Source: Deltaproteobacteria bacterium RBG_13_61_14
GTDB lineage: Bacteria > RBG-13-61-14
Length of the DNA stretch: 10,951 bases
Reading direction: 5' to 3'
Assembly (NCBI GenBank): GCA_001797815.1
Contig: MGQK01000043.1
Span: 11,415-22,365, forward strand
Part shown: in pieces, positions 3,303 to 10,744 of the stretch
Layout of the letters: each line of letters starts with the position of its first letter
How positions within the stretch are numbered: the stretch's first letter is position 1
Translations under genes and position numbers: made by a program
The notes under the pieces: generated by a model
Database searches by the model: none
Seen by the model: only the letters and a program-made list of their open reading frames with translations
What the model was told of the DNA's origin: nothing

Positions 3303-3382
3303 GTAGGGGCAGGGCTTGCCCTGCCCTTTTTGGGCCCGGCAAGCCGGGCACCCTACCGGGCGCGATAAATCGCGCCCCTACA
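3303..3382. repeat. Cluster of three palindromes bounded by GTAGGG motifs
   Basis: Three perfect hairpins stand side by side. The first has arms 3307-3315/3318-3326 (GGGCAGGGC). The second has arms 3334-3340/3343-3349 (GCCCGGC). The third has arms 3358-3366/3369-3377 (GGGCGCGAT). GTAGGGGC borders the first (3303-3310), GGTAGGGT on the minus strand borders the second (3350-3357), and the reverse complement GCCCCTAC closes the third (3375-3382). The shared border and differing stems suggest related units of one dispersed palindromic family. The cluster separates carB from the gene upstream. No run of T follows a stem on the minus strand, so it is not a canonical terminator, although the hairpins could protect mRNA ends. 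Confidence 0.7.
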
Positions 3383-3383
3383 T

Positions 3384-3414
3384 TTTGTAGCCCACCCTTT
3401 CTGAAGGTGGGCTA
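3384..3414. repeat. Hairpin repeat TTTGTAGCCCACCCTT after the radical SAM gene
   Basis: TAGCCCACC at 3388-3396 pairs with GGTGGGCTA at 3406-3414, and TT/AA extends the stem inward past a bulged C. The hairpin ends two bases before the radical SAM stop codon. The 16 bases TTTGTAGCCCACCCTT (3384-3399) recur exactly at 6176-6191 between pyrC and carA, so this is a dispersed repeat rather than a gene-specific terminator. CAAAATG, not a T-tract, follows on the minus strand. Confidence 0.65.
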
Positions 3415-3416
3415 AA

Positions 3417-4403
3417 TTAAAATCTTCTTTGCTTCCAGCCGTTTTCCAGACCCAGCCGCTCCATCGCCTCGGCCGCGTCCCGGTAGTCCTTGGCCGCAAG
3501 CCCCCGGGCCAACTCCGGGAACTCATGCGCCCGGTTCGCCGGGAAATACTGGGCCATCAGGCTGACCGCGGTCCCGAGAGAAATGTCTTCGGCCAGGAAG
3601 CGAAGCACGCCTTCGCTCCCGGCCAGCCCGCAGGGCAGCACCAGATGCCGCACGATCAGGCCCCGGATCGCAATCCCCTCCTCATCCATCACCAGATCAC
3701 CCACCTGCCGGTGCATCTCCCGGATGGCGGCCCGGTTCACTTTCTGGTATCCTTTCGTCGGGGCGACCGGCGGCTCGACTGAGCTCGCCGAAGTCCGGTC
3801 GCCCCTACCCTTCGGCACGCCGGAATATTTTTCCGCATTGGCATCATCATCGTATTTCATGTCCGGCAGGTAGATGTCCACGATCCCGTCGAACAGCTTC
3901 AGCGTCTCCACCGAGTCGTAACCGCCCGAGTTCCAGACCAGCGGGAGCTTCAGGCCGCTTTTGATTGCGAGCCGGAGCGCTTCCAAAATCTGGGGCGCCA
4001 CGTGGGTCGGGGTCACGAAGTTGATGTTGTGGCACCCCCGGCGCTGGAGTTCCAGCATCATCACCGCCAGCCCGGCCGGTTCCACCGGGCTTCCGTGCCC
4101 CAAATGGCTGATCGGGTAGTTCTGACAGAAAACGCAGCGCAGGTTGCAATGGGCGAAAAAGATGGTGCCCGAGCCGCGAAAGCCGCTCAGCGGCGGCTCC
4201 TCCCCGTGGTGCTCGTTGTAGCTCGAAACCTCGGCCACGGCCCCGGTCTCACAAAAACCCTTCTCCCCGGAAAGCCGATCCACCCCGCACTCCCGCGGAC
4301 ACACCCGGCACGGAGAGAGCATCTCCCGCGCCTGCCGGATGCGGAGGGAAAGATCTATGTCCGAAAGCCGCAGGTAGCTCGGAGTTTGGTCCTCGGCTTT
4401 CAT
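3417..4403 (-). CDS. PflX/COG1313-like radical SAM protein with an inserted palindromic peptide
   Basis: A 328-residue Fe-S protein resembling the uncharacterised PflX/COG1313 relatives of pyruvate-formate-lyase activating enzyme; its substrate is unknown. The radical SAM cluster motif CNLRCVFC (C86, C90, C93) is intact. An N-terminal CRVCPREC plus GEKGFC gives four further cysteines (C32, C35, C39, C51), typical of this group. Other family-like blocks are NFVTPTHVAPQ, IVDIYLPDMKY and HLVLPCGLAGSEG. I chose the ATG at 4403 because it overlaps the upstream stop as ATGA and has GGAG eight bases before it; a longer in-frame reading to 4445 runs inside the neighbour. Residues 198-217, between YSGVP and GYQKVNRAA, are encoded by a palindromic element and look foreign to the family. 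The gene sits inside the pyr operon, between the 207-residue hypothetical and carB. Confidence 0.88.
   Translation of the reverse strand: MKAEDQTPSYLRLSDIDLSLRIRQAREMLSPCRVCPRECGVDRLSGEKGFCETGAVAEVSSYNEHHGEEPPLSGFRGSGTIFFAHCNLRCVFCQNYPISHLGHGSPVEPAGLAVMMLELQRRGCHNINFVTPTHVAPQILEALRLAIKSGLKLPLVWNSGGYDSVETLKLFDGIVDIYLPDMKYDDDANAEKYSGVPKGRGDRTSASSVEPPVAPTKGYQKVNRAAIREMHRQVGDLVMDEEGIAIRGLIVRHLVLPCGLAGSEGVLRFLAEDISLGTAVSLMAQYFPANRAHEFPELARGLAAKDYRDAAEAMERLGLENGWKQRRF
3753..3812. repeat. 60-bp palindromic element inserted in frame in a coding sequence
   Basis: Perfect 11-bp arms GGGGCGACCGG (3760-3770) and CCGGTCGCCCC (3795-3805) flank a 24-bp core containing GGCTCGACTGAGC. The outer sequence GCCCCTAC (3801-3808) repeats the border motif of the palindromes at 3303-3382. 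The element adds exactly 20 codons to the radical SAM gene without a stop. GAAGG on one side and GAAAGG on the other (minus strand) may be an imperfect target duplication. The limits are placed where the family-like protein sequence stops and resumes, so they could shift by a few bases. Confidence 0.7.
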
Positions 4404-6175: not shown

Positions 6176-6207
6176 TTTGTAGCCCACCCTTGCCCGGCAA
6201 GGGTGGG
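6176..6207. repeat. Perfect hairpin repeat in the pyrC-carA gap
   Basis: CCCACCCTTGCC (6183-6194) and GGCAAGGGTGGG (6196-6207) form a perfect palindrome around a single C. The leading TTTGTAGCCCACCCTT (6176-6191) is identical to 3384-3399. It lies eight bases upstream of the carA ATG, so in mRNA it could affect ribosome access or internal RNA processing. The minus-strand flank is CTACAAATAAG, not a T-tract, so it is unlikely to be an intrinsic terminator. Confidence 0.7.
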
Positions 6208-7522: not shown

Positions 7523-7553
7523 ACTTAACAAGGGGTCTGACCCCATGTTAAGT
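7523..7553. repeat. Palindrome with GGGGTC/GACCCC core across the pyrB stop
   Basis: ACTTAACA (7523-7530) pairs with TGTTAAGT (7546-7553). One A/A mismatch follows, then GGGGTC (7532-7537) pairs with GACCCC (7539-7544) around a single base. The element includes the pyrB stop (7548-7550) and fills the pyrB-pyrC gap. The GGGGTC-N-GACCCC core is a motif I recognise from dispersed REP-like repeats in many bacterial genomes, often cited with RAYT-type transposases; none is visible here. Confidence 0.75.
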
Positions 7554-9076: not shown

Positions 9077-9095
9077 CGCAACCCCCGAGAATTAA

Positions 9096-9196
9096 TAGGC
9101 TTTAGGCATTAGGCTTTAGACTTTAGGCCCAGGATGTTGTTATTCATATCTGAATCTTCAGTCTAATGCCTAAAGCCTAAGGTCTAAAGCCTGCTA
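9096..9196. repeat. Inverted repeat of TAGGCTTTAGGC words in the pyrR leader
   Basis: The left arm (9096-9128) is built of variants of TTAGGCTTTAG, and the right arm (9160-9196) is its imperfect reverse complement. About 30 bases are pairable, and the mismatches are mostly A/G or C/T changes. The loop is roughly 30 nt. The element begins at the T-tract of the attenuator and ends shortly before the pyrR ribosome-binding site, so any read-through transcript carries it. It encodes nothing. Word-like internal repetition plus inversion suggests a dispersed MITE- or REP-like unit. Confidence 0.65.
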
Positions 9197-9227
9197 AAAA
9201 AAAGCCTTCCCCACAGTCGGAGAAGGC
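9196..9227 (-). terminator. Intrinsic terminator of the pyr leader (attenuator)
   Basis: On the minus strand GCCTTCTCC (9227-9219) pairs with GGGGAAGGC (9212-9204), one T·G wobble in nine pairs, around a six-base loop. Eight T residues follow (9203-9196). It stands 120 nt before the pyrR start and about 80 nt after the expected transcript start, so it must be regulated rather than constitutive. AGAAGGGC at 9267-9260 can pair with the 5' arm GCCTTCT (with one bulge), giving a candidate antiterminator. Confidence 0.88.
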
Positions 9228-10644: not shown

Positions 10645-10669
10645 GCAACCCTGAGAATTTTGGATTGCG

Positions 10670-10726
10670 GATTTTGGATTTGGGATTGGCGGCTTTCTTA
10701 AAATCCCCAATCCGAAATCCAAAATC
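10670..10726. repeat. Inverted repeat of GATTTTGGATTT words in the polA leader
   Basis: The left arm 10670-10688 and right arm 10708-10726 pair at 18 of 19 positions around a 19-base loop. Further related words (TTTTGGATTGCGG) extend to about 10658. It ends eight bases before the polA ribosome-binding site, so it is transcribed in the polA leader. Its build, short degenerate words in two inverted arms, matches the element at 9096-9196 although the word is different. Confidence 0.65.
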
Positions 10727-10744
10727 AAAAATCGGAGTAAGGTC

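Follow-up and report, generated by a model that had tools for sequence, protein, structure and literature searches.

A GTAG-tagged, REP-like palindromic repeat with a nested core, inserted in frame in a deltaproteobacterial radical SAM gene

The closest described relatives of the element reported here are the GTAG-tagged REPs, which Di Nocera et al. (2013; PMC3733652) described from many phyla and sorted into 24 families. According to the same study, REPs have been reported within other palindromes, and they also occur inside genes (e.g., in Opitutus terrae), where more than half form dimers or groups that encode 20–30 amino acids. In IS200/IS605 and RAYT (TnpA-REP) transposition, a hairpin carrying a GTAG motif is recognized by the Y1 enzyme, and no target duplication is produced (PMC8266576). 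An older precedent is set by the Rickettsia palindromic elements (RPEs), mobile-looking palindromes that many genes carry in their reading frame (Ogata et al., 2000, 2002, cited in PMC10969869). In-frame insertion of a palindromic repeat into a gene is an already known kind of event; what looks new, judged by anatomy, is the GTAGGGGC repeat family and its nested construction. A text search of the literature for GTAGGGGC found no relevant paper among the matches listed.

The window, that is, the whole stretch of 10,951 nt that was analyzed (G000:C43:11415-22365), belongs to a fragmented draft genome of 4.74 Mb in 132 contigs. The host gene sits within a 342-aa open reading frame, and its product, for which the PflX/COG1313 name given by the first-pass annotation is fitting, carries the cluster motif at residue 86; curated models match it weakly, the Pfam match ending just short of its cut-off (Table 1). 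Positions 3753–3812 are an insertion in this gene. In an alignment of 29 relatives, none from a genome of the same genus as the host, there is a clean gap at residues 198–217 in all 28 homologues that span the site, whose conserved P and Y are separated by a single residue, against 21 in the query; reading the DNA of the 29th (G002, of the same order), where a stop codon occurs close by, shows no insert either. The 20 residues are likewise missing from all 39 named database loci that were compared separately and represent many phyla, so that the loop is absent from all 68 related genes checked. An AlphaFold model computed from 40 sequences (mean pLDDT 91.8) falls below a pLDDT of 50 only at residues 202–213, within the insert and between helices 187–194 and 219–234; in this model the added peptide resembles a disordered loop attached to a fold that is otherwise intact, and since the insert lies in this predicted loop between helices, the enzyme core is probably undisturbed. 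As a side observation, the homologue in G002 (L052, G002:C733) has an in-frame TAG just ahead of the insertion site and is possibly a pseudogene.

The insert itself is a composite, its two arms of 14 nt each enclosing a core on the + strand (Table 1), with a perfect 11-bp match between 3760–3770 and 3795–3805. Only 52 of the 60 net inserted nucleotides belong to the repeat; 52 is not divisible by three and would alone shift the frame, which is kept because of 8 further nucleotides of non-repeat sequence. The first-pass annotation had described an 11-bp perfect inverted repeat around a 24-bp core that leaves the frame unbroken, and had noted that its outer sequence recurs at the border of nearby palindromes. 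All of this is confirmed: the coordinates agree with the + strand sequence, the open reading frame runs uninterrupted across 3753–3812 (with the refinement that the repeat by itself is not a multiple of three), and GCCCCTAC also terminates the neighboring intergenic cluster. The homologue gap and the empty site in related genomes that it had anticipated were found as well.

Table 1. Coordinates of the insertion, its parts and its surroundings (positions in the window)
Feature	Position	Strand	Evidence
Host gene; radical SAM protein of 328 aa, PflX/COG1313-like, with intact CNLRCVFC cluster motif	3417..4403	-	Pfam Radical_SAM 27.6 bits, below 29.5 cut-off; homologue in 41 of 60 relative genomes searched; model pLDDT 91.8
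Net in-frame insertion in radical SAM gene, 60 nt = 20 residues 198–217	3753..3812	-	Missing from 29 relatives and 39 named loci
Composite palindromic element of 52 nt, GTAGGGGCGACCGG family; mutated at one end (GTCG on the + strand)	3757..3808	.	40 arm matches in genome vs 1 for control; 52-nt class shared with C27, C129
Left arm GTCGGGGCGACCGG	3757..3770	.	Sequence, arm search
24-nt core CGGCTCGACTGAGCTCGCCGAAGT, second repeat at centre of 28-nt palindrome	3771..3794	.	18 genomic matches (<=2 mismatches), control 0; also at centres of other palindrome subfamilies
Right arm CCGGTCGCCCCTAC; coding strand 5' GTAGGGGCGACCGG, GTAG intact	3795..3808	.	Sequence, arm search
GTAGGGGC/GCCCCTAC hairpin cluster in the spacer separating host gene and carB	3303..3381	.	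Sequence

The insert is a copy of a high-copy, dispersed repeat family. Perfect elements of the form GTAGGGGC N1-61 GCCCCTAC number 133 in the genome as against none for the reversed control, and the arm GTAGGGGCGACCGG was matched 40 times (both strands, at most one mismatch) as against once, so the palindrome is more than a product of chance. A detailed survey, which took in 44% of the genome (2.1 Mb, in part picked around known copies), found 121 elements, 65 of them exactly 28 nt long. This basic unit is a perfect palindrome, GTAGGGGC-N6-N6'-GCCCCTAC or GTAG-GGGC-N6-N6'-GCCC-CTAC, whose eight outermost bases hardly vary while the inner core differs by subfamily (ACGGCA, GGTTCG, GGCTCG, ATGGCA, GACCGG, and GCGATT). 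The stem is kept through compensatory changes: at positions 9–13 of the 65 28-mers, 315 of 325 cells are Watson–Crick paired, with several pair types. Elements of a second class, 53–75 nt long, comprise two hairpins with outward GTAG (GTAG-hairpin-spacer-hairpin-CTAC), which is REPIN anatomy. Although 80% of the surveyed bases are coding, 108 of the 121 elements are intergenic, with four across gene ends and nine called inside genes. No RNA family in Rfam matches the element, the sole match in the window being a tRNA.

With the GTAG-tagged REP superfamily (PMC3733652) these elements share a terminal GTAG beside a short palindromic stem (seen in the 133 perfect copies, and intact in the window copy on the 5' side of the coding strand), a high copy number, an intergenic bias, inverted dimers, some in-frame intragenic copies (20–30 aa), and the presence of Y1 transposases. 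They differ in their GGGC stem with a variable core, in bearing GTAG/CTAC on either end of a single 28-nt palindrome instead of GTAG at one end of a monomer, and in the second repeat of 24 nt at the center; nor was a cognate RAYT found. The REPIN (Bertels & Rainey, 2011; PMC3116915) is a good likeness of the twin-hairpin class, whereas the inserted 52-nt copy has one hairpin, tailed on both sides, and not two REPs plus a spacer. Because the unit is double-tailed and nested and its transposase putative, we class it with GTAG REP/REPIN elements as a variant. Membership among the RPEs was considered and rejected: the sequence is unrelated, the element measures 52 nt compared with about 150 nt and is mostly intergenic, the tag is GTAG instead of the CGTC of RPE-4/6 (PMC3733652), and the host is not a Rickettsia.

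Seven intragenic copies are convincing (on C43, the window contig, and on C24, C27, C46, C77, C96, and C130), and they reside in unrelated genes. The copy on C27 encodes the peptide GRGDRTSASSVEPPVAPT, identical to that in the window, at a linker ahead of the catalytic domain of a sulfatase-like membrane protein (named by motifs); that on C96, of the 88-nt class, occupies a linker of a protein judged by motifs to be CusB-like; that on C46 is at the C-terminus of its protein. On C130 the loop that holds the element is missing from five homologues, and for C24 the homologue search returned no relative covering the element site. Phase 2, where GTAG would read as a TAG stop, is not used by any of the seven. 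Two further elements called inside genes (L229 and L233) were dropped as degenerate chance matches at two mismatches. Separately, a Y1 transposase gene on the same contig as one of these copies (L094, G000:C130:61946-62110) contains three tandem in-frame SEPDFRGAGAP repeats, the DNA of which includes TAGGGGC.

Copy number and unrelated flanks point to a mobile element. Its anatomy, together with the published recognition of GTAG (PMC8266576), suggests that GTAGGGGC elements may be mobilized by a RAYT. The genome has 19 Y1 genes, and three of the five tested passed the REP_Tyr_transpos cut-off (NCBIfam). REP_Tyr_transpos proteins are encoded on C83 and C130. The C83 gene (107.9 bits) is followed after 17 nt by a GTAGCCCGCCC hairpin and has a related hairpin, inverted, on its upstream side; this makes a classical REPtron of the sister GTAGCCC family, the sole family for which a REPtron was seen; around the Y1 genes none was found for GTAGGGGC, and none of these genes is clearly cognate. 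This second GTAG REP family, to which the C83 REPtron belongs, also occurs twice in the window, as hairpins GTAGCCCACCCTT...AAGG(G)TGGG at 3387–3414 and 6179–6207. An IS200-like gene on C96 is the only Y1 gene with a GTAGGGGC motif within 1.5 kb, and its candidacy is weakened by its scoring as IS200 and not REP and by other hairpin families adjacent to it. Flanking direct repeats of at least 5 nt accompany none of 103 elements and do not rise above chance, as is expected for single-strand chemistry of the IS200/IS605 type; a target-site duplication suggested by the flanks CCGAAGG / CGAAAGG at the window site was rejected as a family property on that count. As for the first-pass interpretation, a mobile palindrome that creates peptide, it is supported in principle by the high copy number, by the homologue gap, with no homologue carrying a similar 20-residue loop, and by other copies with the same arms inside genes, including the identical peptide on C27, its mobile character following from copies and flanks as above. 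The resemblance to RPEs that it drew, in principle and with a different sequence, also held, with GTAG REP/REPIN proving closer.

Elements with GACCGG arms come in three sizes, 28, 52, and 88 nt, where the 52-nt class is the 28-nt palindrome with the 24-nt core at its center, and in the 88-nt class that core is itself interrupted by another 36 nt. A fourth level is seen in L259 (about 1454–1516, contig C10), in which 30 nt lie in the 36-nt insert in the 24-nt core. The core is central also in the ATGGCA, ACGGCA, and GCGGCT subfamilies and in an unrelated TAAGTTC palindrome, and several core-bearing subfamilies have empty 28-nt counterparts elsewhere in the genome. It is not confined to palindrome centers, an idea that was rejected on finding other copies between direct CAGATT repeats or elsewhere; of 32 matched core copies, 13 lie above the 99th percentile for random stems. 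Separately, four 28-nt GACCGG palindromes (L001, L012, L021, and L024; ~1470–1570) have a longer common flank, CGCGGGGTTACC...TTTGGGCAACAGGC, which suggests that they ride in a larger repeat. The size classes and the empty counterparts speak for an origin of the insert in two or more steps, the 28-nt palindrome arriving first (12 codons net) and the core later at its center (8 codons). As the nested lengths (24, 36, and 30 nt) are all divisible by three, an intragenic element could enlarge repeatedly without a frameshift. This multiple-of-three pattern is suggestive; it is based on three modules only, and an intergenic variant of 89 nt lies outside the series. Against the stepwise origin, near-identical composites of 52 nt (C27, C129, and the window) and of 88 nt (C107 and C125) suggest that whole composites may be mobile too, and we regard the stepwise history as possible though not the favored one. 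If it is true, proteins can grow by nested, frame-neutral steps. More doubtful still is the general picture of a self-nesting palindrome system, built on a GTAGGGGC family common to many bacterial lineages, in which small repeats with lengths divisible by three enter the centers of other palindromes and provide a stepwise route to new protein loops. The traceable series of 28, 52, and 88 nt in one genome lends itself to the question of how palindromic repeats originate, nest, and spread.

Whether assembled in steps or moved whole, the insert is likely a copy of a palindromic repeat of the GTAG-tagged, REP/REPIN-like type, non-autonomous and spreading within the genome; it consists of a 28-nt unit with a 24-nt repeat at its center. 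A REP-associated Y1/HuH transposase would recognize GTAG and the hairpin and move the element by single-strand transposition; selection would remove most coding insertions, and those that survive would keep the frame, lie outside the phase that turns GTAG into a stop, and fall in loops or linkers. Counted against this reading are the Y1 genes, none of them clearly cognate to GTAGGGGC, the GTAG at both ends of the 28-nt unit, the 8 of 60 inserted nucleotides outside the repeat, and the 132-contig assembly. The last of these, with an element that is itself repeated, could also hint at an assembly or binning artefact that joined two sequences at a short repeat, which is scarcely credible given that both sides encode the same protein in the same frame and form one continuous match to G001 (63% identity, residues 2–325). 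It is improbable that the palindrome persists because it serves a purpose as RNA or DNA (an mRNA hairpin for translation or stability, or a binding site) with the peptide as a by-product: the predicted RNA hairpin is strong (−38.7 kcal/mol), and REPs at gene ends are thought to influence mRNA stability or termination (PMC3733652), but the z-score is modest (−2.19), the element is mid-gene, and its family is overwhelmingly intergenic and avoids genes. That the loop is an adaptive addition altering the enzyme is very unlikely; the intact frame, cluster motif, and flanks imply that the protein is probably made, but the same peptide occurs in the unrelated sulfatase-like gene, the loop is predicted to be disordered, and no second lineage carries it. 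The 20 residues are most likely tolerated and not selected. Read as the spread of a GTAG-tagged repeat, the locus shows cleanly, at one site, how a repeat can write new peptide into the gene of a conserved enzyme.

Of 192 genomes drawn from across Bacteria, 53 contain the GTAGGGGC palindrome, with differing cores, which makes the identity of its mobilizer a general question. G001 and G002, both of the same order, have 0 and 9 copies, at the low end of a range that reaches 171 in G061 and 229 in G139; this spread over lineages could reflect horizontal transfer or convergence. The composite of GGGGC plus core is found in this genome only, among 183 genomes. Elsewhere in the window, long imperfect inverted repeats at 9092–9197 and 10657–10733 (TAGGCTTTAGGCATTAGGC... 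and TTTTGGATTGCGGATTTTGGATT...) look like further palindromic repeat families, and an imperfect palindrome, ACTTAACAAGGGGTCTGACCCCATGTTAAGT, at 7523–7553 lies just upstream of the dihydroorotase gene, with a similar sequence near the C129 element (L026).
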